Positions 1 through 19,166 of a stretch of 21,158 bases of DNA are shown one piece after another. The notes under the pieces are model-generated. The model had not been told where the DNA came from. It saw only the letters and a list, made by a program, of their open reading frames with translations, and did no database searches. Within the stretch, counting starts at the first letter, position 1. The number at the start of each line of letters is the position of its first letter. The DNA is from a virus: positions 1-21,158 of the IMG/VR virus record IMGVR_UViG_3300048836_000737; one strand, written 5' to 3'. The position numbers were made by a program, and so were the translations under genes.

Positions 1-1
1 C

Positions 2-1745: not shown

Positions 1746-2096
1746 ATGTCATCGACCGATCCGAACCTTGGACTCACCTACGGCTGGACGCTTGGCGAAA
1801 GTGGCTGGGACAGCGGCATGGACGCCAATCTGAAACGCCTCGGCGCGACAGTCGGCCTGTCCGTGAAAGACCGCGACCTGACCTCGCCACCAGCCAGCCC
1901 AGTCAACGGCGACCGTTACCTCATTCCCGCCGCCGCCACCGGCGTGTGGGCAGGCAAGACCAACCAGATCGCCGTGCGCATCGAAGGCGTGTGGGAATAC
2001 CACGCGCCCAAGGTCGGCTGGCTTTGCTACATCGAGGACGAGGCCAAGCTCAGTGCCTACAAACCCGCAGGCTGGAGCGCGGGCATCGCCATCTGA
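1746..2096 (+). CDS. DUF2793 domain phage tail protein
   Basis: The 116-residue protein matches the DUF2793 pattern found in phage tail and putative fibre proteins: an N-terminal stretch with regularly spaced aromatics (GLTYGWTLGESGWDSGMDANLKRL), a central SPPASPVNGDRYLIP motif at about 48-61 and the ending KVGWLCYIEDEAKLSAYK at about 89-106. No signal peptide or membrane segment is visible. The ATG lies two bases after the preceding stop, with GGAGA as ribosome binding site inside the upstream gene. It is the last gene before a strong terminator hairpin, so it probably closes the tail transcript. Family members are mostly tail fibre or baseplate accessories of unproven function; a binding role is inference. 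Confidence 0.75.
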   Translation: MSSTDPNLGLTYGWTLGESGWDSGMDANLKRLGATVGLSVKDRDLTSPPASPVNGDRYLIPAAATGVWAGKTNQIAVRIEGVWEYHAPKVGWLCYIEDEAKLSAYKPAGWSAGIAI

Positions 2097-2120
2097 TTTC
2101 CACTCACCCGCAACCACCCG

Positions 2121-2143
2121 AACCCGCCCACGAGGCGGGTTTT
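2121..2143 (+). terminator. Intrinsic terminator between tail and lysis genes
   Basis: AACCCGCC (2121-2128) pairs perfectly with GGCGGGTT (2134-2141) around a five-base loop, CACGA, and runs into TTTT (2140-2143). The 8-bp GC-rich stem with a short T tract fits a rho-independent terminator. It sits in the 65-bp gap between the DUF2793 gene and the lysis cassette and could attenuate read-through into the lysis genes. Confidence 0.75.
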
Positions 2144-2161
2144 GCATTTCTGGAGACTGCA

Positions 2162-2464
2162 ATGACCGAAGAACACCAACCCGCCACCCTCGTGGAAAAC
2201 ATGCTGCTCATCCGGCGCGAAGACTTCGACGAACTGCTGGATCGTGCCGCCGAGCGCGGTGCCGGACGTGTGCTGGCCCACCTCGGCCTCGAAAACGGCC
2301 ACGCCGCCCGCGACATCCGCGAACTGCGTGATCTGCTGGAGGCATGGCGCGATGCCCGTCGCACCGCGTGGCAGACCACCGTGAAAGTCATCACCACCGG
2401 CCTCCTGGCCGCGCTGCTGGTCGGGGCCGCCATCAAGTTGAAGTTGATGGGAGGCCCGCAATGA
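2162..2464 (+). CDS. DUF6127-like small phage membrane protein
   Basis: This 100-residue protein has a soluble, charged, helix-forming N-terminal half (LLIRREDFDELLDRAAERGAGR) and one C-terminal hydrophobic segment at about 72-92, ending in KLKLMGG. The pattern, an E/D-rich helix then RTAWQTTVKVITTG and a final membrane helix, agrees with the DUF6127 family of phage proteins as I remember it. It begins the lysis cassette directly after the terminator hairpin, with TGGAG seven bases before the ATG, and its stop overlaps the next start (ATGA, 2461-2464). Position and topology would suit an antiholin or holin accessory, but no function is established from the sequence. Confidence 0.65.
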   Translation: MTEEHQPATLVENMLLIRREDFDELLDRAAERGAGRVLAHLGLENGHAARDIRELRDLLEAWRDARRTAWQTTVKVITTGLLAALLVGAAIKLKLMGGPQ

Positions 2465-2685
2465 CCGCCCGCAAAATCTGCTTGCTGGACGACTGGCGCA
2501 AGATCGCACGCCGCGCGTGGAGCATTCGTCTGTCCATCGTCGCGGCGATCTTCACGGCGGCGGAAGTGGTGGTACCGCTGTTCGGCGACGTTCTGCCGCG
2601 CGGCGTGTTCGTGCTGCTGGCCTTCAGCGCCAGCATCGGCGCGGCCATCGCCCGCTTGGTGGCACAACCGGAGATGCACCGATGA
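2461..2685 (+). CDS. Putative holin, two membrane segments
   Basis: The 74-residue protein has a basic amphipathic start (DDWRKIARRAW) and two predicted transmembrane segments at about 22-41 and 47-66, separated by a tight turn containing GDVLPRG, with a short charged tail. Two-helix proteins of this size directly upstream of an endolysin are typical holins, which depolarise or perforate the inner membrane to time lysis. The start overlaps the preceding stop and its own stop overlaps the endolysin start (ATGA at 2682-2685), so expression is probably coupled. I do not recognise a named holin family. The role rests on topology and gene order. Confidence 0.6.
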   Translation: MTARKICLLDDWRKIARRAWSIRLSIVAAIFTAAEVVVPLFGDVLPRGVFVLLAFSASIGAAIARLVAQPEMHR

Positions 2686-3197
2686 TCCGGCCGCCATCAT
2701 CACCAGCTGCGCGCCGCACCGTGGCCGCGCTGACCCTGTCCGCCGCCGCACTGGTCGGCCTCGTGCTGCACGAGGGCTACACCGACCGCGCGGTGATTCC
2801 GGTCAAGGGTGATGTACCGACCATCGGGTTCGGTACGACTTCGGGCGTGAAGATCGGCGACACCACCACGCCGCCAAAGGCGCTGGCCCGGGCGCTCACC
2901 GATGTGCAGCAGTTCGAGGGCGCGCTCAAGCAGTGCGTGACTGTCCCGCTGGCGCAGCACGAGTACGACACCTATGTGTCTTTCGCCTACAACGTCGGCA
3001 GCCGCGCGTTCTGCCAATCCACGCTGGTGAGGAAACTCAACGTCGAGGACTACGCCGGAGCATGCGCCGAACTGCTGCGCTGGCGCTTCTTCCAAGGCAA
3101 GGACTGCGCATTGCCGGAGAACAGCCGGTTGTGCGGTGGTCTCGCTACACGGCGTCAGGCCGAGTACCGCCAGTGTCTCGGGGAAACCGCGCCATGA
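2682..3197 (+). CDS. Phage endolysin, GH24 lysozyme, probable SAR type
   Basis: This 171-residue enzyme should cleave the glycan strand of peptidoglycan between N-acetylmuramic acid and N-acetylglucosamine. Residues 13-29 form a weakly hydrophobic Ala/Leu/Gly-rich helix right before the catalytic segment, as in signal-anchor-release endolysins exported by Sec and held at the membrane until depolarisation. HEGY places the general-acid glutamate at residue 31. TIGFGTT gives the conserved threonine at 47, with Asp44 nearby. Further GH24 features are AYNVGSRAFC in the middle and GLATRRQAEYRQC near the end. I chose the ATG overlapping the holin stop because upstream in-frame sequence encodes only the holin in another frame. 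The stop overlaps the Rz start (ATGA). Confidence 0.85.
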   Translation: MIRPPSSPAARRTVAALTLSAAALVGLVLHEGYTDRAVIPVKGDVPTIGFGTTSGVKIGDTTTPPKALARALTDVQQFEGALKQCVTVPLAQHEYDTYVSFAYNVGSRAFCQSTLVRKLNVEDYAGACAELLRWRFFQGKDCALPENSRLCGGLATRRQAEYRQCLGETAP

Positions 3198-3691
3198 CGC
3201 TGATCCCTTGGCCGTACCGCCTGCTGGCCTTGGTGCTGCTCGCCGTCGCGCTGATCGGCTTCGGCTGGATCAAAGGAGCCGTGCACGTTCAGGCGCAGTG
3301 GGACGCCGCCGTCCAACAGCAAGCCCTGCAAACCTCGGCCACGCGCCTGCGTCAGGCTGAAGCCACCGTCAAGGTCGTCACCGAGTACGTCGACCGCGTC
3401 CGCGTCGTCCGCGAGAAGGGCGACACCATCATCAGGGAGGTTCCCGTCTATGTGCCCGCTCAAGCCGATGCTGCTTGCACTATCAACCGTGGCTTTGTGC
3501 GCCTGCACGACGCTGCCGCCGCCGGGGAACTGCCCGAGCCCGCCGGAGATGCTGATGCGCCCGCCGCAGGAATTGCGCTCTCTACCGTCGCCGAAACCGT
3601 CGCAGGCAACTACCAGTCCTGCCACGAAAACGCCGAGCAACTGAGGGCGTTGCAGGGGTGGGTCAGGGGGATGGCATCCGCCATCAAGTAG
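3194..3691 (+). CDS. Rz-type inner-membrane spanin
   Basis: The 165-residue protein has a short N-terminal cytoplasmic stretch, one transmembrane helix at about 9-26 (LLALVLLAVALIGFGW), then a long periplasmic region that is helical and likely coiled coil between about 30 and 80 (VQAQWDAAVQQQALQ, RLRQAEATVKVVTEYVDRV). This is the i-spanin layout. Together with Rz1 it bridges the periplasm and fuses inner and outer membranes in the last step of lysis of Gram-negative hosts. A cysteine at 95 could form a disulfide. It overlaps the endolysin stop by four bases and fully contains the Rz1 frame, which strongly supports the call. It is the last recognisable phage gene. Confidence 0.8.
   Translation: MTLIPWPYRLLALVLLAVALIGFGWIKGAVHVQAQWDAAVQQQALQTSATRLRQAEATVKVVTEYVDRVRVVREKGDTIIREVPVYVPAQADAACTINRGFVRLHDAAAAGELPEPAGDADAPAAGIALSTVAETVAGNYQSCHENAEQLRALQGWVRGMASAIK
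3450..3644 (+). CDS. Rz1-type outer-membrane spanin lipoprotein nested in Rz
   Basis: A 64-residue frame lies wholly inside Rz, shifted by +1. It begins with a hydrophobic signal (MLLALSTVALCAC) with a lipobox-like LCAC, giving a lipidated cysteine at residue 19 (or 17). The mature part is very proline-rich (TTLPPPGNCPSPPE), which is diagnostic of Rz1 o-spanins. It would be anchored to the inner leaflet of the outer membrane and pair with the end of Rz. The start is either the ATG at 3450 or the in-frame ATG at 3468; the second gives a more usual signal peptide, the first lies behind GGGAGG at 3435-3440. Confidence 0.8.
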   Translation: MCPLKPMLLALSTVALCACTTLPPPGNCPSPPEMLMRPPQELRSLPSPKPSQATTSPATKTPSN

Positions 3692-3767
3692 CCAACGCCT
3701 GAGGTGGCGCGCTCGCGCTGATCTCCTTCACGGGCACCAGAGAAGTATGAGACAATACATATAGTCC

Positions 3768-3815: not shown

Positions 3816-4973
3816 ATGGGCGAGTTGACTGGTTTGAAAGCTGATTTAGCCCAGATTGTTCGGCTGGCGCTCGCCGAGCAGGCGGAGGACGTGCGCCTGT
3901 TTGCTGCGAGGCTGGTCAGAAAGTACCGAGGCACTGAGCCGGAGTTGGCCGAACAGGTGGATCTGTTCCTTCGCGCCAAGCCGCATCGAGCAGGGGCACC
4001 GCTGCGCAAGGTGACATCGCCTTCGCTGCCGGAGCAGGTGCTGCCGGTGGATGACGAATCGCGCCTGTCGCTGTTGAAGGTCTTCAAGGACTCTCCGGAT
4101 CGTGAGGCTCCGTTGTTGTCTGCCGAGCTGGAAGAGTCCCTTGGGCAATTGATCCAGGAGCGCAAGCAGGCAGCGCGTCTCGCCACGCTCGGTTTGACCC
4201 CGACCCGCTCTGCCATCTTTGTTGGTCAACCCGGGGTGGGCAAGACGCTGACGGCTCGCTGGTTGGCAGCCCAACTGGGCGTGCCGTTGTACGTGCTCGA
4301 TCTGACTGCCGTGATGAGCAGCCTGCTGGGACGCAGCGGCAGCAACCTGCGCGCGGCGCTGGATTTCGCCAAACGCAGTCCCTGTGTCCTGCTGCTGGAC
4401 GAGATCGATGCAATCGCCAAACGTCGCAGCGATGACACGGACATCGGTGAACTCAAGCGGCTGGTGACCGTGATCTTGCAAGAGGTTGACGAGTGGCCAG
4501 CAACGGGATTGCTGCTGGCCGCCACCAATCACCCAGAGTTGATCGATCCAGCGCTGTGGCGACGGTTCGATCTGGTTGTGGAATTCAAGGTGCCAGCGGC
4601 GGCGGCGGTCAAAGAAGCCATTAAGCGTTTCTTGGGGCCGGACTTTGCCTTGTTCGGTCGCTGGATCGAGATTCTGGCTTTCGCGTTTCGCGGACAGTCC
4701 TTTAGCGACATCGAGCGCGAGATACAGCGCTTTCGGCGTGCAGTGGCGCTGGGGACAACGCCGGATGCCGACCTGATCGAAGAATTCATCAAGGCACGCG
4801 CCCTCTCTCTGGATCGGCAAGGCCGCATCGACATGGCAGTGTTGCTGGCAAATCAGACGCGCCTGTCTCAGCACAGTATCTCGGACATCACCGGCGTGAG
4901 CCGGGACACCATTCGCAAATACACCACCGATAGCTCGACCGTGGTTCCCAAGAAACGGAGACGTGAGGCATGA
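3816..4973 (+). CDS. ietA: AAA+ ATPase of an IetAS-type defence pair
   Basis: This 385-residue protein has an N-terminal helical region (1-125), then a classical AAA+ domain: Walker A GQPGVGKT at 137-144, Walker B LLLDEID at 192-198, sensor-1 ATN at 236-238 and a candidate arginine finger at RR 249-250. The C-terminal lid is followed by a helix-turn-helix-like segment (RLSQHSISDITGVSRDTIRK, about 349-368) and a basic tail. The four-base ATGA overlap with a subtilase gene matches the IetAS anti-phage module (AAA ATPase plus subtilisin-like protease). By analogy the ATPase probably senses infection or unfolds and feeds substrate to the protease; that mechanism is inferred. The ATG at 3816 has only a weak ribosome binding site. 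Sequence composition is less GC-rich than the phage genes upstream. Confidence 0.75.
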   Translation: MGELTGLKADLAQIVRLALAEQAEDVRLFAARLVRKYRGTEPELAEQVDLFLRAKPHRAGAPLRKVTSPSLPEQVLPVDDESRLSLLKVFKDSPDREAPLLSAELEESLGQLIQERKQAARLATLGLTPTRSAIFVGQPGVGKTLTARWLAAQLGVPLYVLDLTAVMSSLLGRSGSNLRAALDFAKRSPCVLLLDEIDAIAKRRSDDTDIGELKRLVTVILQEVDEWPATGLLLAATNHPELIDPALWRRFDLVVEFKVPAAAAVKEAIKRFLGPDFALFGRWIEILAFAFRGQSFSDIEREIQRFRRAVALGTTPDADLIEEFIKARALSLDRQGRIDMAVLLANQTRLSQHSISDITGVSRDTIRKYTTDSSTVVPKKRRREA

Positions 4974-7192
4974 GCCAGACCAACTTTCTGATCGGGCGCG
5001 GCGAGTTGCTGACCCACGAGATTAAGGGCCCCAAACGTGGCATGGACAAGGCTGAGGTCTACACGTTGCAGCAAGCGCGGAGCCGACTGATGCCGCAGTT
5101 CGTCGAGGTCGCGGCGAACCTCGATAGCTTGCCTGACAAAGCCTGTCCGGGAGATTTGGGCGTGGCTCGTCTCACGCTCAATCCGAGTTACATCGCGCGC
5201 TCCTTCTTCCCGACAGCCATGCTGCGGAGCGCGGGTTTTGAGTCGGTCGGCAGCAGGGCCGTCAAAATCACCCCAGAGGGCTGGTCAAAGAAGGGGCCGC
5301 CACGCGAATCGGCCACCACGGAGCTGTTCGTGGTGGGCCAGCGCCAGGCATTCCGCCAGCTGAAGGACTGGGCCGGGCAACTGGGCGAAGGGTCGAATGA
5401 AGCCAAGGATTTGTCGCATATCGAGCGGTTTTCCGCCTTTGAGTCCAAGGATCGCATCGTCTCGTTGGGCAAAGCAAAGGATCGCTTCTTCGAGGTTGGC
5501 ATCCATCTGCTTCCCGGTGACAACGATCAGTTTGTGCAGCGTGCGTTTGCCAAGTACGCAGCCGATGTTGGTGTGACGATCCATACCGACTTGGCGTTCA
5601 GCGCGGGCAACCTGTGGTTTCTTCCGGCCGAGGGTACGCACCACAACATCAAGCGCTTGGCTGAGTTCACCCTTGTGCGCGTGATTCGTCCCATGCCGCA
5701 ACTGCGTGGCATGCGTCCGGTGCAACGCTCTGCGGGCGTGAAGGTGGCGTGCAGCCTGCCGACAGAGCAACCCTTGTCGTCCGAACCCAAGGTCGCCATC
5801 CTCGACGGCGGCCTGCCCGAGCAGCACAGCATTGCTCCGTGGTTGAGAACCTATCGGGCACTGGATGAAAACGCGGCGGATGATCCGAGCGGTTTGGAGC
5901 ACGGCCTCGGTGTGACCTCGGCATTCCTGTTCGGCCCAATAGCTCCGAACAGCACTGCGGCACGCCCATACTCCTACGTTGACCACCTGCGCGTGCTGGA
6001 CCGCGAGACCGAATCGGAAGATCCACTGGAGCTGTACCGCACGCTGGGGCTTGTCGAAGAAGTCCTGCTGTCGCGCCAATATCAATTCCTCAATCTCAGC
6101 CTGGGGCCGGATCTACCGATTGAGGACACCGACGTGCATGCGTGGACATCGGTGATCGACGACCTGCTCAGCGACGGTGATACCTTGATGACCGTCGCCG
6201 TTGGCAACAACGGCGAAATGGATCGCTCGGTGGGCAATGCCCGCGTGCAGGTGCCCTCGGACTGCGTCAACGCCTTGTCTGTGGGCGCTGCCGACAACGT
6301 GGATGCGACGTGGTCGCGTGCCGCCTACAGCGCCGTTGGGCCTGGGCGCAGTCCTGGTGTGGTGAAGCCTGACCTCATGGCATTTGGTGGAGACGCCGCC
6401 AGCTCTAAGTACTTCCATGTGCTGGGCGCTGGCGCGAAGCCGACGCTGATCCCGCAGTTGGGTACCAGCTTCGCGTCGCCATACTTGTTGCGTAATGCCG
6501 TCGGTGTTCGGGCAATCCTCGGCGCGGATTTGACGCCGCTGGCCATCAAGGCATTGCTTGTTCACGCCGCTGATTCATCCACCCACGACAAGCTCGAAGT
6601 GGGTTGGGGCAAGGTTCCGGAAGACCTGATGGAGGTCATCGCTTGCCCGACCGGCGTGGCACGAGTGGTCTATCAGGGGGAGTTGAAGCCGGGCAAGTTC
6701 TTGCGCGCAACGCTTCCCCTGCCTGTCGGCGGCCTACAAGGCAAAATTCGCCTGAAGGCGACCTTTTGCTATGCGTCGCCGACAGACCCTCAAGATGCTG
6801 TCGCCTACACCCGCGCTGGTCTGGAGGTTGTGTTCCGGCCCAGCGACAAGAAGATCAAGGAGGGCAAGACCAGCGCCGACACAAAGGGCTTCTTCAGCAT
6901 GAAGAAATACGCCACCGAGGAAGAGCGCCGTTCCGACCTGGGCAAGTGGGAGACTGTTCTGCACGGCAACAAATCCATGCTGGGCAGCAGCCTCGACAAC
7001 CCGGTGTTCGATATCCACTACAACGCCCGAGAGGCGGGTGGGCCGACAACCAACGCCGAGAAAATTCGCTACGCGCTGATCATCACGGTTGAAGCGCCCA
7101 AGCATGCAGACCTCTACAACGAGATTCTGCGTGCCTACGCGAAGACGCTGGTGCCCATCCAGCCGAAGGTGACGTTGCCGGTTCGCGTGTGA
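4970..7192 (+). CDS. ietS: Subtilisin-like serine protease (S8) of an IetAS-type pair
   Basis: This 740-residue protein has an N-terminal accessory region of about 270 residues and an S8 domain with a complete catalytic set: Asp279 in VAILDGG, His311 in LEHG, oxyanion Asn413 in AVGNNG, and Ser500 in GTSFASP. A ~200-residue beta-rich C-terminal region follows. No signal peptide is seen, so it should act in the cytoplasm, unlike secreted subtilases, which fits a defence effector controlled by the partner ATPase. The start overlaps the ATPase stop (ATGA at 4970-4973), with GGAG and GAGG as nearby ribosome binding sequence. The gene ends 19 bp before the converging Res stop. The alternative is a cytoplasmic S8 protease of unrelated role, but the AAA+ coupling argues for IetAS. 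Confidence 0.78.
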   Translation: MSQTNFLIGRGELLTHEIKGPKRGMDKAEVYTLQQARSRLMPQFVEVAANLDSLPDKACPGDLGVARLTLNPSYIARSFFPTAMLRSAGFESVGSRAVKITPEGWSKKGPPRESATTELFVVGQRQAFRQLKDWAGQLGEGSNEAKDLSHIERFSAFESKDRIVSLGKAKDRFFEVGIHLLPGDNDQFVQRAFAKYAADVGVTIHTDLAFSAGNLWFLPAEGTHHNIKRLAEFTLVRVIRPMPQLRGMRPVQRSAGVKVACSLPTEQPLSSEPKVAILDGGLPEQHSIAPWLRTYRALDENAADDPSGLEHGLGVTSAFLFGPIAPNSTAARPYSYVDHLRVLDRETESEDPLELYRTLGLVEEVLLSRQYQFLNLSLGPDLPIEDTDVHAWTSVIDDLLSDGDTLMTVAVGNNGEMDRSVGNARVQVPSDCVNALSVGAADNVDATWSRAAYSAVGPGRSPGVVKPDLMAFGGDAASSKYFHVLGAGAKPTLIPQLGTSFASPYLLRNAVGVRAILGADLTPLAIKALLVHAADSSTHDKLEVGWGKVPEDLMEVIACPTGVARVVYQGELKPGKFLRATLPLPVGGLQGKIRLKATFCYASPTDPQDAVAYTRAGLEVVFRPSDKKIKEGKTSADTKGFFSMKKYATEEERRSDLGKWETVLHGNKSMLGSSLDNPVFDIHYNAREAGGPTTNAEKIRYALIITVEAPKHADLYNEILRAYAKTLVPIQPKVTLPVRV

Positions 7193-7211: not shown

Positions 7212-10200
7212 CTACTTCACGATTTCCATCAACCTGCCGAAGCTGTCCACCACGTCGTACTTGACGTTCTCTGGGGCGAAGCGGCGATTCATCTCCTCGA
7301 AGAACTTGCGGGCACACTTGATCTTGGTCTTTTCGATCTCGCGCAGATCCATCGATGACATCGACCCCTTGGTTTCCGCCACGAAGTAGATGTGCTTGAC
7401 CGTGCCTTCCTTGAAGGTGATGGCCCAGTCGGGGTTGTAGTCGCCGACTGGCGTCGGGATCAGGAAGCCGCGTGGCAACTTGGCGTATACGACCACCTCG
7501 ACACTGGCCTCCAGCGCCTCGGCAAAGTCGCGCTCCGGCTTCGATCCTGAATCCGGCAGTACGAAATCGTAGATGTGGTGCTTGGGCGTTCTGACCGCGT
7601 TGCTGAAGTCCTGCTTGGTCTGCCCGGCGGTGAAGATGTCGAGGTCGAACTTGTCCTCGACCGGGTCGTAGGCCAGATGTTCGATGATGACCGTGGCCTT
7701 CTGCTCATTGATGAGCCGCGTGGCCTCGGCAATGAAGCTCTCGGGGTTGGTCTTGAATTGCGCAAACACCGCGACGTTGATCCCCTTGAGGACTTCCGCC
7801 ACCGTGCGGCGCGTCAACTGCGTGCCCTCAGCCAGCTTGCCGATGAGGTCGTACTTGACCGCCGAGTGGATCGAGTTCTTGTTGGTTTCGGTTTCCGTGG
7901 CTTTCAACTCGAAGGCATTGCCGCCCTTGATACCGTCATAGGTGACGGCGGCTGCCTGCTCGCCGTGCTGGATGGTGTATTGCAGCGGGGTCACGCGCAA
8001 GGCTGCGTCCAGCTCCTTGACTGCTTTCTGCACCAGCTCGTCCGAGTCGAAGTCGACGCTGTAGGCCGCCTTGCGGTTGATGCGGTTCCACAGCGCCTTG
8101 AACTCCTGCTTGTCGAAGTTGGCGTTGAGCGGATTCTTCTTGGGGCGACGGTCGTCGCCGATGTCGGGCAACTGGCTCGCGCTGAAGAAACTGTCGATCA
8201 GCTGGAACACCTGTTCAGCGTGCGGCTTCAGCTCTGGCGGCAGGTCGGCGAGCGTCCCAGCCTTCTTGGCATCGTGGTACGCGCCAGCGATCCTATCCGC
8301 ATCGTCGGTGTAGTCGTTCTTGACCAGATAGCGGTAGATCTGCTTCGCCAGCTGCGGCGTGACCTGCACGTCCCCTGTTGGCGTTTTGAACACCTTGCCG
8401 GTGAAATATTCTTCGTTCGCCACCTTGGGGCGGGCGGACAGCGAATCGCTGATGTCCTTCTGCAGCGCCGCCACGAAGTCCTTGTAGCTCTCGCTGGCCA
8501 CCACGGTCAGCACGTTCACGTCGTGGACGATGGCCGGGTGATCCATGCGGTCGCCCTGCTGGTTCACGGACAAACGCAGGCCGCGCCCCACCTCCTGGCG
8601 GCGCGAGATGGTGTTGTCGCTGTGCTTGAGCGCGCAGATGACGAACACGTTCGGGTTGTCCCAGCCTTCGCGCAGGGCCGAGTGCGAGAAGATGAAGCGC
8701 ACCGGCTCGGCCAATGACAGCAGCCGCTCCTTGTCCTTCAGGATCAGGTCATAGGCGTCCACGTCATCGGACAAGCCCGCGTTCTCGCCGCGCGCCGCCA
8801 CATCCGAATCCACCTGCCGCTTGCTCTTCTTGTCGATGGAAAAGTAGCCGCTGTGGGTCTTGCCCACCGGGATGCCCTTCAGGTACTTGATGTAGGCCGT
8901 CTCGTCCAGATCAAGCACCTCGTTCAGGTACTGGGTGTATTCCTCCTCGAAGATGCGGGCGTACTCGCCTTTCTCGTCCGCCTGCGCGTAGTCGCGGTAC
9001 TTGGCCACCTCGTCGATGAAGAACAGGGTCAGCACCTTCACACCCTGTTGGAAGAGCGCCTGCTCCTTGTCGAAGTGCGCCTTGATCGCTTCCCGAATCT
9101 GGATGCGACGCAACGCCTGCTCGGTCACGTCGCCCGTGGCATCGCCCACCGTCAGCTCCACGCCATTGGTAAAGCTCAGTGTGTCGGTGTTTGCGTTGAT
9201 GTCCGCCACCACATAGCCGTCGCGGTACTGATCCAGCCCGTTTGAGAGATCGAACAGGTTGTCGCCCTTGCCGAGCTTGCGCACCACGCGCTTGATGTCG
9301 CCATTGGCGAGTTTCTGCTCCATCTCCACGCGCGCCTCAGGCGGCTTCTTGGTCGAGATGTCGATGGATTGCAGATACAGGTAACCGGTCGTGCCCGCCA
9401 GCCCCTTCACCGCGATGCCGCGCACGGCGATTTTCTTCACCAGCTTCTGGTTGTAGGCATCCAGCGCGTCCAGCCGGTGAATCTTGTTGTGCGTGGTCTT
9501 GTGGGTCGCCGAGTAGCGCAGCACCATCAAGGGCTTGAAGTTGACCAACGAATCTAGCGTCTTGCCGCCTTCCATCTTCTGCGGCTCGTCCAGAATCAAA
9601 ATGGGCCGGTTAGCACTGATGACATCGATGGGCTTGCGCGACTGGAAGTCGTCCAGCTCCTCGTAAATGCGCCGATTGTCCTTGCCGGTAGCATTGAACG
9701 CCTGCACGTTGATGACCATCACGTTGATGCCCGCGTCTGACGAGAAGCTCTCCAGATGGTGCAATTGCTTGGAGTTGTAGATGAAGAAGCGTGCCTTCTT
9801 CTGGTAGCTCTCCAGAAAGTGTTCGGCGGTGATGTCCAGCGACTTAGCCACGCCCTCGCGAATGGCGATGCTCGGCACCACGATGATGAACTTGCTCCAG
9901 CCATACAGCTTGTTCAGCTCGAAAATCGTCTTGATGTAGCAGTAGGTCTTGCCGGTGCCGGTTTCCATCTCGATGTCGAGGTTCACCCGCGCGACCTTGG
10001 TCTTGACCAGCGTGTCCGACAGCGGGAGGTTCTGCGCCCGTTGCCCGGCATGGATGTTGTCGAGCAGCGCCGTGTCCGAGAGCACGAGGTCGGCGTTCTT
10101 GAACCCGGCCTCGGTGAACAGGTCTTCCGTTCCCTTCTTGGCCTTGCCGGGGTCGATGCGGTAGCTGATGGCCTCGGTGGATGCAGGCGGCTGGCCCTTG

Positions 10201-10265
10201 AAGCAGTCCACCACCGCCTGTACGGCGGCAGTCTGGTAGGACTGCGTTTTGAACTTCAGTTTCAT
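7212..10265 (-). CDS. res: Type III restriction enzyme Res subunit (helicase-nuclease)
   Basis: This 1017-residue protein is an SF2 ATPase with a C-terminal nuclease. Visible motifs are ETGTGKT (motif I, 101-107), DEPQ (motif II, 226-229), SATH (motif III, 252-255), [13 protein letters not shown] (529-541) and [12 protein letters not shown] (motif VI, 554-565). The end carries a PD-(D/E)XK site, NPDWAI (Asp946) followed by AETKG (Glu964, Lys966). Length is usual for type III Res. With Mod it should translocate from unmodified asymmetric sites and cut near the site after two complexes meet. The start is 10 bp after the mod stop with GGGGGCGGAG as ribosome binding site. Both active sites look intact, so restriction is probably functional. 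It is the last gene of the operon. Confidence 0.93.
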
Positions 10266-10275: not shown

Positions 10276-12234
10276 TCAGATGCTCTTCACTTCGGTGGAG
10301 GGCGACAGCGACTTGAAAATCTGCTCCACGTTGATCTTGACCGCGCTGTCTTTGAACCCGGCGTCGCGGAACACCGCGCGCAGCGGCTTGTGCGTCGCCA
10401 GTTCCTTGACGAAGCTTTCATCCACGCCGCCGTGAGCGTCGAAGCAGGCGGCCAGCGCCGGGCTGCCATTTGCGCTCGCGTCCACGAAGAACACCTCCTT
10501 GCCCTGGATGACCTTCTTCTCGATGGGCAGGGCGAGGTCAACGCCCCAATCCAACATCACCTGGAACAGCAAGTCTTCCGCCGTGCGGTCGGGCTTGATG
10601 TTGTCCACGAACAGGTCGAGCTTCCCCTTTTCCAGCGCATCAGGGGCGTAATAGACATCGGCCATATTGGAGGTGTCGATCTTGAGGACGCGGAAGCCAA
10701 CGTCCTGTTTCCACCCCTCATCAGAATCGCCCTCAAGAACTTGTTTGCCAGCCCGACGAATGCGCTCCTTCCCAATATCAGGAATGCTCTTGTATCCAGC
10801 CTTAGCCCCTGCGGAATCGGGCGCAAGTTCTTCCGCCAACTGCACCATGATGAAACGACGGTTTCCGCCTTCCTCAGCATTTACTGTCATTACCGCATGG
10901 GCCGTTGACGAAGAACCGGAAAAGAAGTCCATGACGATGGAGTTTGGATGGCTGCCAATCCTTACGAGCTTGGCCATCAGCTCCGTCGACTTTGGGAAGT
11001 CCATGACGGACGAGCCGAATAGGTCTTTGATCGCCTTTCGCCCGTAGTCGTTTGTGATCTCCTTATCCACCCACAGGGATTTGACCAGTGTCTTGGCGAC
11101 CTCTCCGTTTTCCCCATGCAGATAGTCTTTACGGTAGATGCGCCATTCGTCACCGGTAGGTTGTGCGCAAAGCAGCTTTCCTTCCTTCAATACCTTGTCT
11201 TTTCCCCACGTCCAGCACGTCTTGACTCCATTGGGAGCGTCTGGCCAGACTTCAATCTGAAAGTTCGCATCTTTCTTCAGCGAAACAGCGCACGTTGCAT
11301 TGTCTACATAGAGCGGGTAGTAAAGCTTCGGACGTGTGGTCGGATTGAAAGCTTGGTTTCGATTGCGCAACCCAAGCAGGCGGTACTGGCCTTGATCATC
11401 ATTTTTATCGTATTCATCGACCATCCGACCTTCCTTTTCAAGGCCACGAACTGCCGAGGAGTTGAGTCCATCTTTTACAAACACGAGGACAGCTTCATGG
11501 GTCTTGGCGACAAATCTATCCAAATGTCGGCCACGGGGATTCAACTGAACAGCAAGTTGGGCGACAAAATTCTCCGAACCGAAAATCTCCGAACAGATAT
11601 TGATTAGATTGCTCGATTCGTTGTCGTCGATGCTGATGAAAAGCACGCCATCGTCGGCCAAAAGTCGGAACGCGAGACGAAGTCGTGAATACATCATGGT
11701 CAACCAATCGGAATGAAATCGCCCATTCGCTGCGGTATTGGCAGCGAGCCGATTCCCTTCCTCATCCACTTGATTCGAGCGACGCAAATATTCGTTCGCA
11801 TCCTCGGCAAAGTCGTCCTCATAGATGAAATCATTGCCCGTGTTGTACGGCGGGTCGATGTAAATCATCTTCACCTTGCCCAGATACGTCTCCTGCAACA
11901 GCTTCAAGGCATCGAGGTTGTCACCCTCGATGAACAGGTTCTTCGTCGTATCGAAGTCCACGCTCTCTGCGCGCACCGGGCGTAGCGTCTTGGCAATCGG
12001 CGCATTGGCCGTCAGCAGCGCCTCGCGCTTGCCGGGCCAGTTGAGGTGGTAACGCTCCTGCGGGCCTTCGACGATGGCGCTGGACAGCTCCTGCTTGAGC
12101 TGGTCGAAGTCCACTGCCAGCCTCACGCTGCCGTCCTCGCCCCGCGCTTCCGTCACGCAGCCGGGGAACATCTCGCGGATGCGCGCAATGTTGTCTTCGG
12201 TCAGGTTGGGCGAGTGCATTTTTAGCTTTTCCAT
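10276..12234 (-). CDS. mod: Type III DNA adenine methyltransferase Mod subunit
   Basis: This 652-residue protein is a beta-class amino-methyltransferase: the catalytic IDPPYNTG (DPPY at 127-130) precedes the AdoMet-binding [14 protein letters not shown] (435-448), with a target-recognition region of about 300 residues between them. It should methylate N6-adenine on one strand of a short asymmetric site and guide Res. The N-terminal [16 protein letters not shown] is typical of type III Mod. I chose the ATG at 12234 because AGAGGAA lies just upstream; Met6 is a second possible start. A 74-bp gap separates it from the upstream helicase gene, the only sizeable gap in the operon, and I found no clear promoter there. 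The central part is much AT-richer than the ends (about 46% GC at 11401-11640 against 67-70% in flanking lines), suggesting exchange of the recognition segment. Confidence 0.93.
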
Positions 12235-12308: not shown

Positions 12309-15011
12309 TCAGTCGCCCTGCTGCCAGTCCTGGCAAAAGTGCGTGCGCAGACTCTCGATGCCGGATGGCAAGGTGCCTTGGCAAGTGACGCCCAGGTAGG
12401 TGGCCGCGCGGGTGGTGCCGACGTACAGGTATTTGTCGAACAGCGCGGGGTGCAACGAGGCCAGTTGGTCAATGCCGACAAAGAACACCGCCTCGAACTC
12501 CAGACCTTTGATGTGCTGGATGTCGAATACGCGCACGTTGCTTTCTTGCCCCACGGCCTGCCCCTCACGGCAGGCGATGACCTGGATGTTGTGCTCGGCC
12601 AGGGCGGCGTTCAGAGCGTCGGCCACCGGGGCAACGTCATCCTCGGTGTTCACAAAAATGGCGGTGGATGGCAACTGACCGACAAAGCGCTCAATCTCCC
12701 GAATGCGATCAGCCAGCCACCAAACAGTGGTTTCCGCGTTGGTAGCGTGCTCCAGCAAGGCAGGTGCGACGCCCATGCTGTCCATATGTGCAGGCAAGCT
12801 GGCGCCTTGTTCGGTGCCACCGACGGCCTGGATCATGGCGCGGGCCAAATCATTCAGTTGCTTGCTCTGCCGGTAGGAGACCGTGATTTCCTTGATGTCG
12901 AAATCGGCGAAGACCCACTTCAAGTCGTCGGCGGAGCGCGTGCCCCAGGTGGTCAGGCGCTGGTTGAAGTCGCCGCAGGCAAAGAACGAGCGCAGTCGTG
13001 GATGCGCCAGCGCTGCCATGCTCGCAAGCTGGATGGGTGAGAAGTCCGTTGCTTCGTCCACCAAGATCTGGTTGCGGTAGTGCCCGAGGATGGGCTGGAG
13101 CGATGACCACGCGGGACTATCGATATCACGCTGGACGTTGGGCCGACTGATCAGGTCGCCTGCGGCGCGCAAGATCGCAAGCAAGACGATGTCCAACTCC
13201 AGCGGATGGATGTCGCGCGCCTCAAAGGCTTCGTGGCGATACCAGGTGTTTGCCGGTTGGCGCTCGCGCCTGAATGCACGGTAGCGCTTCGGGATGCCAT
13301 CGAGGTAGCGCTTGACCGGATTGACGAAACGACGGGCACTGGCCTGCACCAGAAGGCTTGCCCCTACCTCGGCGCGATCCGCCTCTGTCAGGCCGCGATC
13401 CTTCAGCCACTCGATGATCTTGCCATTGCGAGATGCCTTGCTGAGTGTGCGCTTGGATGCGGTCGCCCGTGCTTGGGCACGCGCAGCTTGCATATAGGCA
13501 TTGAGCGCGGCGGCACGGCCTGTGCGGGGAGCTGTGGCGTCTTCTTCCTCATCAGCGTCGGGGTCGTCCTGCTCGTCCGCATCAGTTGCTTGCGCCTGTT
13601 GCAGGCTATCGATCACGCGGGCCAACTCATCCAGAAAGGCTCGGTTGCGATTGAGTTGCAAGTTGAGAGCGGCCTTGATTTTGGCGTCGGAGCCATCCTT
13701 CAGGCTGCCGACAAGCGCCTGCACTTTGGCAATCTCTACCGCCAGCGAGCCAAACATGGAAGCCAACGCGCCATCGACCGCCCGCGACAAAATGCTTTGC
13801 AGGCGTGCGCCAAGACTCTGTATCTCGGGAATGCTGGCATCGTGGAGCTGGGTTGCTGCATCGTGTAGCTCTTGTACATAGGCCTTGCGCTGCCATGCCT
13901 CGAAGTCATCAAACCATTGAATGGGGCGCTCTAGTGCTGCCGCGTTCAGGCTGGCCAATCCGTCTTTCAGGACAAAAGTGCCGCCACCGGAAGCTGTTCT
14001 GAGGACGCCGAATGCGTTTCGGGCCAGCTCGCGTCGATAGTCATGCCACGTTCTGATGCGCAGATCCGATGCGGGAACACCTTCACGCGCGAAGGCCTCC
14101 TTGAGATACTGTTTGAGCAACTCCGTAGGTGTGAACATCAGCCAGCTATTGGCGTGCGCCATGCCTTGGGCTGAGGTGACTGTTTCAACCAGACGTTGTT
14201 CGCCTTCTTCCAGGAAGGCGGTGTCGAGTTTTTGGCCAAGGCGGCGGATGAGGGTTGTTGTTTTGCCAGTACCGGGTGGCCCCAGGATCAGCAGGCGCTT
14301 GTCGAGCGGGAGTCGGAAGATCTCGTCCTGGTATTGGTCGAGGATGGGCTGATCCCGCAGCCCCATCTTGGTGATGACGCTGCGGCGAACGCCGTCGATG
14401 ATGTTGGCCTTGACGGTTTCCTCGGCCAGCAGTTGGCCCAGAATGTCTTCGGTGACTTCTTCCCCTGCAACCTCAGTCAGAAGCGCACGCAGCGACTCGA
14501 TGGTCAACGGCCCGAAATGTTCGGCCTCAACAACGGTGTCGCGGGAATCCCACCCATCGGCAAGCGTCTTGGGCCGAAGTTGGGCTCGCTCAAGAACCTC
14601 AACGGTGGTTCCATTGGGAAGCGTGAACTCTGCGCCAATTGCCAACGAGGCCAAGCGTCCAACAGGCGCGCGGTAGCTGGCCAAATTGGGAAAACCCGAT
14701 ACCGGCGTCGTGCGGCAGATGTAATAGGTTTTTTCTTCTCCCTCTTCATCGGCCACCACAACGCGAGCGATGGCGGGCTCTGCCACCAGCACTTGATAGC
14801 TTTCGCGGTTCGCCTGACTGATCTGATCCAGCTTTTGGATGGCTGAGCTGGACGTCATCGTGTTGATGCTTGCCAGCGCATCGGAACCCAGTGTCCGCCC
14901 ATCGTGCAGCTTGCCCTTGGCAGTCGCAGCAATGCTTTCGAGTTGCGCCAGCGCTTCGCCAGCGACCTGCTCGATGTGTTTCCGCGATTCGTCGTTCAGA
15001 CTCTGCGTCAT
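12309..15011 (-). CDS. UvrD/HelD-like superfamily 1 helicase with N-terminal Gre/HelD-like region
   Basis: This 900-residue SF1 helicase has Walker A GPPGTGKT (244-251), motif II VDEATDFS (651-658), motif III GDFNQRLTTWG (680-690), motif IV SYRQS (712-716), motif V DIQHIKGLEFEAVFF (830-844) and motif VI YVGTTRA (863-869). About 400 residues, including an acidic linker (476-492), separate the first two motifs. The N-terminal 150 residues are a helical region followed by YRAPVGRLASLAIGAEF and LPNG, which resemble the RAPI segment of HelD and the C-domain of Gre factors, proteins that bind RNA polymerase. I placed the start at the ATG at 15011, overlapping the DUF4391 stop (ATGA), because upstream codons are the DUF4391 gene out of frame. 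The ATPase fold is certain; the polymerase link is inference. It may unwind or strip nucleoprotein at sites recognised by the neighbouring modification system. Confidence 0.82.
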   Translation of the reverse strand: MTQSLNDESRKHIEQVAGEALAQLESIAATAKGKLHDGRTLGSDALASINTMTSSSAIQKLDQISQANRESYQVLVAEPAIARVVVADEEGEEKTYYICRTTPVSGFPNLASYRAPVGRLASLAIGAEFTLPNGTTVEVLERAQLRPKTLADGWDSRDTVVEAEHFGPLTIESLRALLTEVAGEEVTEDILGQLLAEETVKANIIDGVRRSVITKMGLRDQPILDQYQDEIFRLPLDKRLLILGPPGTGKTTTLIRRLGQKLDTAFLEEGEQRLVETVTSAQGMAHANSWLMFTPTELLKQYLKEAFAREGVPASDLRIRTWHDYRRELARNAFGVLRTASGGGTFVLKDGLASLNAAALERPIQWFDDFEAWQRKAYVQELHDAATQLHDASIPEIQSLGARLQSILSRAVDGALASMFGSLAVEIAKVQALVGSLKDGSDAKIKAALNLQLNRNRAFLDELARVIDSLQQAQATDADEQDDPDADEEEDATAPRTGRAAALNAYMQAARAQARATASKRTLSKASRNGKIIEWLKDRGLTEADRAEVGASLLVQASARRFVNPVKRYLDGIPKRYRAFRRERQPANTWYRHEAFEARDIHPLELDIVLLAILRAAGDLISRPNVQRDIDSPAWSSLQPILGHYRNQILVDEATDFSPIQLASMAALAHPRLRSFFACGDFNQRLTTWGTRSADDLKWVFADFDIKEITVSYRQSKQLNDLARAMIQAVGGTEQGASLPAHMDSMGVAPALLEHATNAETTVWWLADRIREIERFVGQLPSTAIFVNTEDDVAPVADALNAALAEHNIQVIACREGQAVGQESNVRVFDIQHIKGLEFEAVFFVGIDQLASLHPALFDKYLYVGTTRAATYLGVTCQGTLPSGIESLRTHFCQDWQQGD

Positions 15012-15682
15012 GCCAGTTCCCTTCCAGTCAATTCTTCGAGTTCGTTCTTGAGCTGCCGCAGGTGCGCGTTGATCTCCACCTTGCGATTGAATTGCTTTTC
15101 TTTCGCCAGTCGCGCCGTGGCCTTGTCCAGCTCGCGCTGTTTGGCTTGTGCTTGTTCGACGCGTAGCACCAGTTCGGTCAGCGCTTCTTGCGGTCGCGCA
15201 GACAAGGGAATCAGGCGGTGCAGCAACTGCTCGTAGAGGCCACCCAGATGCAGGGCCACGGGCATCGCGGTGCGCTCGTGGTCTGTCGGTAGCCAGTCCG
15301 ATGCAAAGTAGTCCGAGAGCACCCAATGGCTGGCGTCGGATTCGCTGGGGCGCTTGTAGGCGGCGATCACCTGCGTCTTACCCTCGAAAACCAGCTCGAA
15401 CACGATGGGAAACGGAATGGCCCCGTCGATGCAGCGCAGCACGTCGATGTGCAGTTCCGTTGTCTTGAGCTGGATGGTGAAGATCTGGATTTCCGGCACG
15501 CCGGGGCGGGCAGGCAGGTGGAGCGTCTCCGGGGCCAGCTTGTACTGCCAGATGATCTGCTCCACCTGTTTGACGAACAGGTCTTTGAGCCGGGTGTTCG
15601 CTCCGCTGTGCTCGTAGATTTTGTTCTTGGGCAGAACGCGCCCGAAGGCGGCTTGTTTGGGATAGGCGATCAGCGCACTCAT
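15008..15682 (-). CDS. DUF4391 domain protein
   Basis: This 224-residue protein matches the DUF4391 family: LPKNKIYEHSGANTRLKDLF at 17-36, the conserved IIWQYKLAPETLHL at 43-56, EIQIFTIQLK at 64-73, a short strand and acidic turn (VLRCIDGAIPFPIVFEL, 81-97) and VIAAYKRP at 105-112. The C-terminal third (about 165-220) is charged and probably coiled coil (LRVEQAQAKQRELDKATARL). No nuclease or ATPase motif is visible. Start and stop overlap both neighbours by four bases (ATGA), and the start has an excellent AGGAGGT ribosome binding site. DUF4391 genes are, to my knowledge, commonly found beside SNF2-type helicases and type III restriction genes. It is probably an adaptor of the two helicases, but its biochemical function is unknown to me. 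Confidence 0.8.
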   Translation of the reverse strand: MSALIAYPKQAAFGRVLPKNKIYEHSGANTRLKDLFVKQVEQIIWQYKLAPETLHLPARPGVPEIQIFTIQLKTTELHIDVLRCIDGAIPFPIVFELVFEGKTQVIAAYKRPSESDASHWVLSDYFASDWLPTDHERTAMPVALHLGGLYEQLLHRLIPLSARPQEALTELVLRVEQAQAKQRELDKATARLAKEKQFNRKVEINAHLRQLKNELEELTGRELA

Positions 15683-18600
15683 CCAACCTCCTGAATCACA
15701 AGGAAGCTGATGAGTTCGAAGTCGTCCAGCCCGGAGATGGTGTTGGTCAGCGCTGTGGTTTTGCCGCCGCTGAATAGGCTATCGAGGTCTTTTTCTTCCT
15801 TTACCTCGATCATCGAACGGATGGCTTTGCCCAGCAGGTCGGAGTAGGCCTGCATCCGGCGGCCATCTGCCGTTTCCTGATTGAAGTGATGGCAGGCCTC
15901 CAAGATGGGTTTGTCCTGCCCCTTGCAGCAGCTGCGAGCCAAGTCGAGCAGGCGTTTGACTTCAGTGTGGTCGTGGATGACCTCGCCCTGGCGGTTGATG
16001 TAGATGAGGTAGTACGGGTGCAGGCGGTTGTGCTGTGGCAGGTGTGCAGGCGGGTTCACGCCCGTATTGCGATTGCGCAGCGTGAAAATCACGCCGGGCG
16101 CAAGGCCCAGATCGGGGTTGGCGGACACGACGGCGTGCAGGCCGTTGGGTGACTTGTCGAGGTCGCCGTGAGCCTTGACGTAGTTCAGCAAATCCATGCG
16201 GAAGTCGTTCAAGCCCAGATCGGTGATGGAGACGCCGGTCTTCAGGTCTTCCAGTTCGATGACTTCCTCCTGCAGGCGGCGTAGTTGCTCCTTGCGGTAG
16301 GACACGTCGTTGGCCTGCGCGGAGATGACGTTGTCGTCGCCGGTGGCCGTGACGTCCACGATCATCATCCGGTTCTCGACGCGCTCCTTGAGGTTGATGT
16401 ACTCGTCCAGCGAGATGTCGGGCCAGTAGTTCACCAGTTGGATGCTGGCGTTGGGTGAACCGATGCGATCCACGCGCCCGAAGCGCTGGATGATGCGCAC
16501 CGGGTTCCAATGGATGTCGTAGTTGATCAGGTAGTCGCAGTCCTGAAGGTTCTGGCCTTCGGAGATGCAGTCGGTGCCGATGAGCAGGTCGATTTCCGCC
16601 GGTTCGCCCGGCAGTACGATGGCCTTTTCCTTCGAGCGCGGGGAGAACAGCGTCAGCAGTTCCTGAAAGTCATACGCCTTCGGCAAAGTGGATTTGGGCC
16701 GGTCGCTGCCCGTGACCTTGCCGGAGTGCAGCTTCAGGGCCTCCAGCGTGGGTGCCAGATTGGCGTACAGATAGTCGGCGGTGTCGGCGAAGGCGGTGAA
16801 GATCAGGATCTTCTTGTTGCCGGGATTGATGGGGCTGGCAATCTTGTTCAGCACCTGACCCTTGAGATGCTGGAGCTTGGCGTCGTCGTCGGGCGTGATC
16901 TTGGCCATCGAGGCCAGCAGCGCCTCGATGTTGGCGAGATCGACCTTGAGGTCGTGCTCCCACGAGGGCAAGTCCATGTCGACCAGATTGATCTTGACCT
17001 TGCCGCCGATGTCGCCACCTTCGCCAAGCTCATCGAGCAGGTCGTCGTCCTCGGCGTCGAGGTCTTCCAGCACGTCGGTCAGGTCGCCGACGCTGGCGGC
17101 GCTGCCGGTCTGATTGAACGCCGCAATCTTGACGAGCGTGCCTTGATGGTTGGCTTGCAGGGATTGCAGCGTGAGCCGGAATGACTGGACGGAGCTTTCC
17201 AGCCTCTTGAGCAGGTTGACCGTCATCAGCGCCTGCAGGCTCTTTTCGCGGTCAGCCTGCCGCAACGTGCCCTTGCCGCCGACCTTGGTGTCGTAAAGGT
17301 CTTCGTACTTCCGCAGGCGGCTGGGCAGGATGTAGCTGACCGGGGCATACACCGCGAGCTTGAGCTTGGCGAGCTGCTCGAATATTTCGTTGAAGCCCAT
17401 GACATCCGAGCGCGTGGTCAGGGCGCAATGGAACGACAAGGGCTTGCGGCGCTCGGGGAAGTGGCCGATGTCCTTGGTGTCGTAGAAGGTCTGGATGTGC
17501 CTGCGCGAGCGCGCGATGGTGACGCTATCCAGCAGCTCGAAGAAGTCGAACTCCAGCGCATCCAGAATGGCGCGCGGCGTGCGCTCCTCCGGCGGCAGCT
17601 TCGACCAGGCATTGAAGGCCGTCTGCGCGTTGCGGAAGACCTCCTCCACCGACTTGCTGGTGCGCAGCTTCTTGCTGAGGTTTTCGGAGTCGCCTTCGTA
17701 GGCGAGTGCGAGCTGGTTTCGCAGATCCGTAAAGCGGTTGTTGACCGGCGTGGCAGAGAGCATCAATACCTTGGTCTTTACGCCTTCGCGGATGACCTTG
17801 TTCATCAACTTCTGGTAGCGGGTTTCCTTGTCCTTGTAGGCGTCGTTGTTGCGAAAGTTGTGCGATTCGTCGATGACGACGAGGTCGTAGTTGCCCCAGT
17901 TGATGCGGTTGAGCGGAGTGCCGAACGATTCGCCGCTGGTGCGGGAGAGGTCGGTGTGCGCCAGCACGTCGTAGCTGAAGCGGTCGCGGGAGAAGATGTT
18001 GGTCTTGAGGTTGCGGTTGTAGTTGAGCCAGTTGTCCGCCAGCTTCTTCGGGCACAGCACCAGAACGGACTTGTTGCGCAGCTCGTAGTACTTGATGACC
18101 GCAAGCGCGGTAAAGGTCTTGCCCAGGCCGACGCTGTCGGCAAGGATGCAGCCGCTGTAGGTCTCCAGCTTGTTGATGATGCCGGTGGCCGCGTCCTTCT
18201 GGTAGTTGAAGAGCTTGTTCCAGATCAGCGTGTCCTGATAGCCAGTGCGGTCGTTGGGCAGGACGTCCTCATCGATGTCGTCGAGGAATTCGTTGAAGAT
18301 GTTGTAGAGCATCAGGAAGTAGATGCTCTCCGGCGAGTTCTCCTGGTAGACCGAGGCGATGTGCTCGCAGAGCTGCGCGGTCACGTCTTCCAGTTTTTCA
18401 GGGTCGTTCCAGATCTGGTCGAACAGGCTCAGATACGTGGCAGCAAAGGGTGCCTCGTTCATCTTGTTGACGAGGTTGGAGACGGCATTGCCTTGCTGGT
18501 AGCCCAGATCGACAGCGGTGAAGCCGTGCAGGGGCATGTAGGCCGTATCGGTGCCGCCAGCCTGCACGCAGGCAAACTGCTGCATGGGGGCCTTGGTGCG

Positions 18601-18963
18601 ATTGCTCCTGAACTTGGCCTTGCGCTGTATCCAGTCGGCGCACTCCTTGGCCACCGCCCGCTGGGTCAGCTTGTTGCGCAGCTGGATCTCAAACTCGCTG
18701 CCGTAGAGGCTGCGCTCGCGGTCGAGCTTGGGGATGTGGAATTCCTTGCGCTCCTTGCGGATTTTGTCCGCGACCTCATTGGCAACGAAGGTGGGCGAGG
18801 TGAAGATGAAGTTCAGCTCGTCGACCTTCTCCAGCTCGGCTTTCAGTGCCTCGAAGGCGTACATCGAAAAGCACGAGGCCGCGATCTTCAGTCGCGCCCC
18901 GGGCCGAACGGTCTGCTTGAGGTCGTCACCTAACAGGCGGCTGATGTTGTCGATCAGTTCCAT
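15679..18963 (-). CDS. SNF2-family helicase with degenerate PLD-like N-terminus
   Basis: This 1094-residue SF2 ATPase has Walker A LADSVGLGKT (274-283), DESH box (365-368), SAT motif LSATPVNNR (402-410), motif V GTDCISEGQNLQDCD (796-810) and motif VI QRFGRVDRIGS (826-836). The N-terminal ~200 residues begin with a phospholipase-D-like opening (LKIAASCFSMYAFEALKAEL), but the HxKx4D catalytic motif is not intact. An acidic loop lies at about 632-651 between the helicase lobes, and a C-terminal region of about 250 residues follows. SNF2 enzymes translocate on double-stranded DNA and remodel nucleoprotein. The start is the ATG at 18963, overlapping the regulator stop (TGATG). A longer frame to 19041 only re-reads the regulator gene. 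DrmD of DISARM is a related helicase type, but the other DISARM genes are missing. Confidence 0.85.
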   Translation of the reverse strand: MELIDNISRLLGDDLKQTVRPGARLKIAASCFSMYAFEALKAELEKVDELNFIFTSPTFVANEVADKIRKERKEFHIPKLDRERSLYGSEFEIQLRNKLTQRAVAKECADWIQRKAKFRSNRTKAPMQQFACVQAGGTDTAYMPLHGFTAVDLGYQQGNAVSNLVNKMNEAPFAATYLSLFDQIWNDPEKLEDVTAQLCEHIASVYQENSPESIYFLMLYNIFNEFLDDIDEDVLPNDRTGYQDTLIWNKLFNYQKDAATGIINKLETYSGCILADSVGLGKTFTALAVIKYYELRNKSVLVLCPKKLADNWLNYNRNLKTNIFSRDRFSYDVLAHTDLSRTSGESFGTPLNRINWGNYDLVVIDESHNFRNNDAYKDKETRYQKLMNKVIREGVKTKVLMLSATPVNNRFTDLRNQLALAYEGDSENLSKKLRTSKSVEEVFRNAQTAFNAWSKLPPEERTPRAILDALEFDFFELLDSVTIARSRRHIQTFYDTKDIGHFPERRKPLSFHCALTTRSDVMGFNEIFEQLAKLKLAVYAPVSYILPSRLRKYEDLYDTKVGGKGTLRQADREKSLQALMTVNLLKRLESSVQSFRLTLQSLQANHQGTLVKIAAFNQTGSAASVGDLTDVLEDLDAEDDDLLDELGEGGDIGGKVKINLVDMDLPSWEHDLKVDLANIEALLASMAKITPDDDAKLQHLKGQVLNKIASPINPGNKKILIFTAFADTADYLYANLAPTLEALKLHSGKVTGSDRPKSTLPKAYDFQELLTLFSPRSKEKAIVLPGEPAEIDLLIGTDCISEGQNLQDCDYLINYDIHWNPVRIIQRFGRVDRIGSPNASIQLVNYWPDISLDEYINLKERVENRMMIVDVTATGDDNVISAQANDVSYRKEQLRRLQEEVIELEDLKTGVSITDLGLNDFRMDLLNYVKAHGDLDKSPNGLHAVVSANPDLGLAPGVIFTLRNRNTGVNPPAHLPQHNRLHPYYLIYINRQGEVIHDHTEVKRLLDLARSCCKGQDKPILEACHHFNQETADGRRMQAYSDLLGKAIRSMIEVKEEKDLDSLFSGGKTTALTNTISGLDDFELISFLVIQEVG

Positions 18964-19166
18964 CAGTCGCCCGCCCCTGAATCCTTGTTGGTCAGATTGG
19001 CGGCAATCCACTTGTCCAGATCGCTGCGACGGAAGCGCCACGTACCGCCCAGCTTGAAAGCGGGGAGCTTGCCTTCAGCCGCAAGGCGATAGACCGTGCG
19101 CTTGCCTGCCTTCAAGTAAGCAGAGACCTCGTCCAGGGTCAGGATTTCACCTTTCGGTTCTGCCAT
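18963..19166 (-). CDS. Excisionase/AlpA-like helix-turn-helix DNA-binding protein
   Basis: This 67-residue protein is almost entirely one winged helix-turn-helix domain of the excisionase (MerR-like, HTH_17) kind: LTLDEVSAYLKAGKRTVYRL forms the helices (9-28), then GKLPAFKLGGTWRFRRSDLDKWI gives the wing and final helix (32-54). It is the first gene of the operon and its stop overlaps the start of the SNF2 helicase gene (TGATG), so it is translated with the system. Such proteins act as recombination directionality factors or small transcription regulators. The palindrome and repeats just upstream are natural targets, so an autoregulatory role is likely but unproven. AAGGGCGAG precedes the ATG. 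Confidence 0.85.
   Translation of the reverse strand: MAEPKGEILTLDEVSAYLKAGKRTVYRLAAEGKLPAFKLGGTWRFRRSDLDKWIAANLTNKDSGAGD

Follow-up and report, generated by a model that had tools for sequence, protein, structure and literature searches.

The stretch analysed here, which we call the window, comprises the whole of a 21,158-base IMG/VR virus record (IMGVR_UViG_3300048836_000737, positions 1-21,158). Genes for phage tail proteins, holin and endolysin occupy its left end (1-3700), followed by IetA and IetS, and the remainder is largely taken up by a unit that consists of a Snf2-like helicase gene, a DUF4391 gene, mod and res, with a UvrD-like helicase gene between DUF4391 and mod (Table 1). In type III restriction-modification systems, methylation affects a single strand of a short asymmetric site, and cleavage is directed at pairs of unmethylated sites. 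The product of mod is predicted to be the methyltransferase and recognition subunit of such a system: its DPPY motif lies ahead of the recognition domain and its AdoMet motif behind it, in sequence as well as by fold comparison, and the adjoining res gene codes for helicase and endonuclease domains (ResIII, RE_endonuc). The solved relatives found by sequence, namely 6k0w, EcoP15I Mod (4zcf) and Mbo45V Mod (7dsu), are also the three best fold matches of a predicted model (mean pLDDT 75), with Z scores of 33.4, 30.7 and 27.3 and an rmsd of 2.5, 12.2 and 3.1 over 286, 433 and 288 residues, respectively; the aligned rows comprise mainly residues 89-527 and barely cover the N and C ends.

Table 1. 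Features of the mod locus (positions in the window; aa, residues of the mod product)
Feature	Positions	Strand	Basis
mod, predicted beta-class methyltransferase subunit of a type III system, 652 aa	10276..12234	-	PADLOC MTase_III PDLC03634, E 1.9e-217; Pfam N6_N4_Mtase; sequence and fold matches to EcoP15I Mod 4zcf and 6k0w
AT-shifted, putatively exchangeable core of mod, aa 134-505: methyltransferase domain past DPPY, target recognition domain, AdoMet motif	10720..11835	-	GC3 split, 0/300 shuffles; identity profiles
mod aa 205-425, unrelated between allele types (32 types, 100 genes), contains predicted target recognition domain	10960..11622	-	identity profiles, typing; EcoP15I TRD limits
mod N-terminal frame, conserved, aa 1-133, includes DPPY	11836..12234	-	identity profiles, typing
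mod C-terminal frame, conserved, aa 506-652	10276..10719	-	identity profiles, typing
mod right-hand junction of identity with 6 relatives of other type, aa 508-513	10696..10713	-	
mod left identity junctions, zone aa 143-228, against 11 other-type relatives	11551..11808	-	
res, type III restriction subunit	7212..10265	-	PADLOC REase_III PDLC03647; Pfam ResIII, RE_endonuc
DUF4391 gene, member of the conserved Snf2-DUF4391-mod-res frame	15008..15682	-	PF14335, E 1.7e-57
Snf2-like helicase gene of the same conserved frame	15679..19041	-	PADLOC C3a139 HKD+Snf2, E 7e-124
UvrD-like helicase gene, present in some loci between DUF4391 and mod	12309..15011	-	in 7/84 loci; Pfam
IetA and IetS	3816-7192	opposite to mod unit	PADLOC

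Among the 84 loci with enough upstream sequence, DUF4391 precedes mod in 72 and a Snf2-like gene in 76, and the UvrD-like insert occurs in 7, counting L088, an identical overlapping contig from the same contig population. The UvrD-like gene is 93-95% identical in L002 and L034, whereas the res genes of these two loci share just 80-82% identity with that of the window. In the viral contigs L089 and L100, Snf2-DUF4391, res and a stretch by the lysis genes match those of the window at 82-84%, but the mod centres are of other types; in the comparison of these contigs with the window, no DNA matching the UvrD gene or IetA-IetS was found. A phage cargo site is suggested, at which the unit, the mod centre and the inserts may vary separately. 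On the E. coli plasmids L082 and L086, a gene annotated as a LAGLIDADG homing endonuclease comes after the Snf2-DUF4391-mod-res unit.

A pronounced step in base composition runs through mod. The GC counts of the first-pass annotation, 46% for 11401-11640, 70% for 12001-12060 and 67% for 10441-10500, are confirmed at 45.8%, 68.3% and 66.7%, respectively, and the neighbouring genes, said to keep the high GC, do have a higher GC than the core, about 60%. The first of these segments has the lowest GC of all 1046 segments of 240 bases taken in 20-base steps along the record. The interval singled out in that annotation (10690-11870) corresponds to mod aa 122-515. With GC3 corrected for amino acids by the codon usage of the neighbours, the best split of mod encloses aa 134-505 (11835-10720), where GC3 falls from 0.86 to 0.56 (N end 0.865, core 0.565, C end 0.858; res 0.875, Snf2 gene 0.858), and a second correction places the split at aa 148-512. 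The low-GC stretch had been described as reaching from the catalytic core to the AdoMet motif, and the latter (DFFSGS, aa 436-441) indeed lies inside, but the best split leaves DPPY (aa 127-130) just beyond the edge of the low-GC3 part. Chance and amino-acid make-up are ruled out as sources of the step, since the GC3 expected from the amino acids is flat (0.77-0.81) and none of 300 shuffles reached the score of the split. A further GC step, in the UvrD ORF as originally called, was an artefact of a start within the DUF4391 gene, and the ORF was re-cut at 15011.

The history of the gene was traced in its relatives. Of 80 relatives from genome contigs, 78 were alignable over the full mod (L023 and L077 were removed for a broken frame); 15 viral and 6 plasmid genes were added, yielding 100 genes including that of the window. 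The near copies L088, L092 and L097 were excluded from part of the centre-type analysis, the ends tree, the AU test, the junction comparison and the 97-gene GC3 count. The median identity of the 78 relatives to the window's mod is 72-92% over aa 1-200, 15-42% over aa 201-440, 55-57% over aa 441-520 and 62-70% beyond aa 520; by their identity profiles, a minority share the window's centre. At a cut-off of 40% identity over 130 aa, the 100 genes form a mosaic of 32 centre types, with 19 members in the window's type, T01. Conserved ends thus combine with unrelated centres, and centre and ends have conflicting histories, two of the features by which alleles of the modA kind are recognised; the motifs read by different centres would differ as well.

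The ends fail to predict the centre, because the nearest neighbour has the same centre type in only 18 of 81 cases by the N end and 15 of 81 by the C end; mean identity within and between centre types is 0.75 and 0.75 for the N end, and 0.60 and 0.62 for the C end. A tree of the ends (97 rows) requires 63 type changes for the 32 types. T01 changes 12 times on this tree compared to a shuffled mean of 15.1, a value as low being reached in 29 of 500 shuffles, and clustering by type is therefore weak at most; for three types taken together, 6 of 200 shuffles were as low. The window's nearest frame relatives bear four other centres, and its starred five-row clade (L020, L021, L038, L045 and the window) holds five centre types. 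AU tests on the ends tree reject a single group of the 15 T01 rows (p 4.8e-5) as well as one of the window with L002-L005 (p 6.7e-4), where the long branches L098, L068 and L050 were left out and the tested groups were defined by their centres with an initial tree already known beforehand. The closest T01 relatives, the identical L088 aside, are 82-83% identical to the window's mod. Judging from these alignments and trees, exchange of the mod centre en bloc within a conserved frame has good support across the gene family, and the frame and centre of the window differ in their histories. The allele replacement proposed in the first-pass annotation hence holds at the level of the family, with its 32 types and non-predictive ends; its reading of low GC as the mark of a replacement in the window's own lineage does not.

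Breakpoints stand out most clearly among six alleles from E. coli plasmids. Here, the identity of L083 and L087 is 97-100% up to about aa 455 and then 68-92% over 100 residues, and beyond about aa 455 L087 is 97-100% like L084. In L008 (6001-7965), GC3 steps at aa 192 and 435 set off a recognition part at 0.17-0.20 from flanks of about 0.6, which looks like a recent swap.

In pairs of unlike type with well-kept ends, the left junctions fall mainly at aa 130-150 and 180-240 (245 pairs), and the right junctions at aa 430-440 and 500-520 (148 pairs). Breakpoints had been expected at the edges of the composition change in the window's mod, which is fully borne out on one side only: the right GC3 step (aa 513) coincides with the junctions at aa 508-513 in 6 of 6 pairs, but near the left step (aa 134-148) there is just one of 11 junctions, the outermost (aa 143), the other ten lying inward of it at aa 183-228. 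Over all genes, GC3 steps and junctions are weakly correlated (Spearman 0.31, p 0.06, n=39; 0.36, p 0.03, n=38). The sequence alignment of mod and the domain limits quoted for EcoP15I in the structural account (PMC4490356) would place the right junction near the end of the methyltransferase domain, ahead of the C-terminal domain.

The low GC3 of the core is by no means peculiar to the window. Core GC3 lies below that of the ends in 77 of the 78 relatives, among them all 27 whose frame is at 0.6 or less. Once viral and plasmid genes are counted too, the figure is 95 of 97, whatever the centre and over a range of frame GC3 of 0.20-0.86. The window's dip of 0.30 is equalled or exceeded in 11 of 78. 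The res gene shows shallow GC3 waves only and differs from the mod ends by 0.009 on average (67 genes), and the core lies below res in 66 of 67. Another PADLOC model, applied to 398 genomes of the phylum, gave 30 loci, of which 28 were used (L158 and L180 were dropped as short; L176 is the gene of L016), and every one of the 28 Mods has a core lower in GC3 than either end. Thirteen of these have ends at least 40% identical to the window's, a line of our own choosing, and 15 represent other type III lineages, every one of which shows the dip. HsdS, the specificity subunit of type I systems, has a GC3 below its neighbours at 25 of 30 loci among the matches listed. A general middle-of-gene effect is ruled out by 249 host ORFs cut in like proportions, where the mean difference is -0.015; 5 of them reach 0.15, half the window's dip, and none reaches 0.30.

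The AT-richness turns out to be a standing property of such genes in very different bacteria and not the trace of one recent swap. Uniform divergence along mod, named beforehand as the result that would speak against a replacement, is what is seen, nearly evenly, against the same-centre relatives L002-L005. Because these relatives share the dip and diverge nearly evenly, and the synonymous changes of the core are near balance, low GC is unusable as a sign of a swap in the window's lineage.

With a probability of roughly 0.85, we favour a frame of conserved ends that carries a swappable central recognition block, whose lower GC3 is lasting and does not mark the age of a single import. By analogy with EcoP15I, the conserved ends would serve dimerisation, harbour DPPY and contact Res, and thus form the frame. 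The central block, roughly aa 205-425 and often accompanied by adjoining conserved stretches, would be swapped by homologous recombination in the conserved parts, the route that we also infer for the window's lineage. The exchanged centre probably sets which DNA sequence is marked: since every block would bring its own target recognition domain, its replacement would alter the methylated and the restricted sequence of Mod and Res in one step and hence create a new specificity. Block GC3 stays under frame GC3 in nearly all kinds of host, and the offset would be an enduring property of the block. The spread of the left junctions (aa 143-228), the weak correlation of steps with junctions, the slight clustering of types and, for the window's own lineage, the distance of the nearest same-centre relatives (82-83% identity) count against this model. 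Moreover, T02 cores follow frame GC3 poorly (r 0.39, n=9) and therefore appear nearer to an import.

For the cause of the offset we infer three remaining candidates: a supply that is always AT-rich, a lack of gene conversion, and weakened codon selection. Centres might, in all hosts, be drawn repeatedly from a pool that is AT-richer than the host, such as phages and plasmids. This is a plausible source, if short of even odds: core GC3 is low in nearly all hosts, such loci do occur on phages and plasmids, and the domain of modA12 is read in this way in the published description (PMC3311624), but the tight tracking of frame GC3 by core GC3 within T00 (r 0.82) and T01 (r 0.92) would require long residence.

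Fast-changing parts of the protein might instead shed preferred GC-ending codons under weaker selection, a process that needs no exchange. Conserved parts of res do have a somewhat higher GC3 (r 0.66, 25 bins), yet the slope found in res predicts only about a third of the dip in the recognition part (0.07 of 0.20) and about a seventh of that in the adjoining conserved stretches (0.02 of 0.14); furthermore, aa 161-200 dip although they are conserved like aa 601-640, and we consider this origin rather unlikely. Similarly doubtful is a lower equilibrium, where unrelated centres find no pairing partner and are left out of the GC-biased gene conversion by which the frame is raised, such that AT-biased mutation sets their level. 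A core below the frame in 95 of 97 genes at frame GC3 of 0.20-0.86, the like sign in other type III Mods and HsdS, and the rise of GC with recombination in bacteria, as stated in the published summary (PMC4450053), agree with it. However, cores of common types ought to pair, and yet T00 and T01 dip in full, and the GC3 of frame and res is equal, although breaks due to exchange occur only in the frame. That restriction-modification recognition cores in all hosts settle below their own gene ends in GC3 through missed conversion is a generalisation we hold to be improbable.

Least probable is the reading of the first-pass annotation, a recent import from an AT-richer donor with a core still unadapted to the host: the contrast of 0.56 and 0.86 in GC3, the other centres of the window's frame relatives, a core with a lower GC3 than the host in 15 of 16 genomes (20 regions at places that we picked, hence indicative only) and L008 as a likely example (TRD GC3 0.19, flanks 0.63) are outweighed by the same centre and dip in L002-L005 at near-even divergence from the window, the tracking of frame GC3 by T01 cores (slope 0.62, n=18) and the lower cores of all 27 frames at or below 0.6. 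The synonymous changes inferred for the core of the window are close to balanced as well: comparison with L002 and L003 gives 26 from GC to AT and 38 from AT to GC, and the addition of L004 gives 10 and 8. This dating is weak because the sites are near saturation. In L016 (Nitrosomonas sp. HPC101), the frame has a GC3 of 0.80, the host 0.49 (one 20-kb sample) and the core 0.44, and here it is the frame that looks recently acquired.

Exchange of the Mod centre is a known route by which type III systems alter their target, and the window's mod is a further case of exchange of the modA kind. The generality of the dip looks new: a literature search, mostly shallow in depth, found no report of a GC dip over many Mod lineages. 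Low GC within a gene is often taken to prove recent transfer, as in the published account of modA12 (PMC3311624), and here it occurs in almost every related gene, irrespective of its history. Given this generality, strain sets from public genomes could serve to tell AT-rich supply, missing gene conversion and weak codon selection apart. If missing conversion were the true cause, low GC within such genes would indicate absent pairing partners and not foreign origin.

Among solved enzymes, EcoP15I (4zcf) shares with the window's system a beta-class Mod, the order of DPPY, TRD and AdoMet motif, and a Res partner; in the structural account (PMC4490356), its TRD comprises aa 263-384 and its C-terminal domain contacts Res. 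The two Mods are 29% identical over the structural alignment, at a fold Z of 30.7. The sequence match to Mbo45V Mod (7dsu) spans the recognition domain (aa 96-465, E 4.5e-50). In type I systems, HsdS is a separate subunit, usually with two domains per protein. Its target recognition domains are described as exchanged specificity modules (PMC3077401) and resemble the Mod centres in their low GC3. In phasevarion mod genes, simple repeats switch expression. The closest parallel is provided by the modA phasevarion alleles of Neisseria and Haemophilus influenzae: as far as the published description goes (PMC3311624), these are likewise type III Mods with conserved ends and a recognition domain that moves en bloc, and in Neisseria modA12 this domain has 28% GC between ends of 40% and 40%, which was read as transfer. 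Unlike modA, the window's mod belongs to a Snf2-DUF4391-mod-res unit that resides partly on phages and plasmids, and because its dip recurs over many hosts, it is, in contrast to that of modA12, not taken as proof of import.
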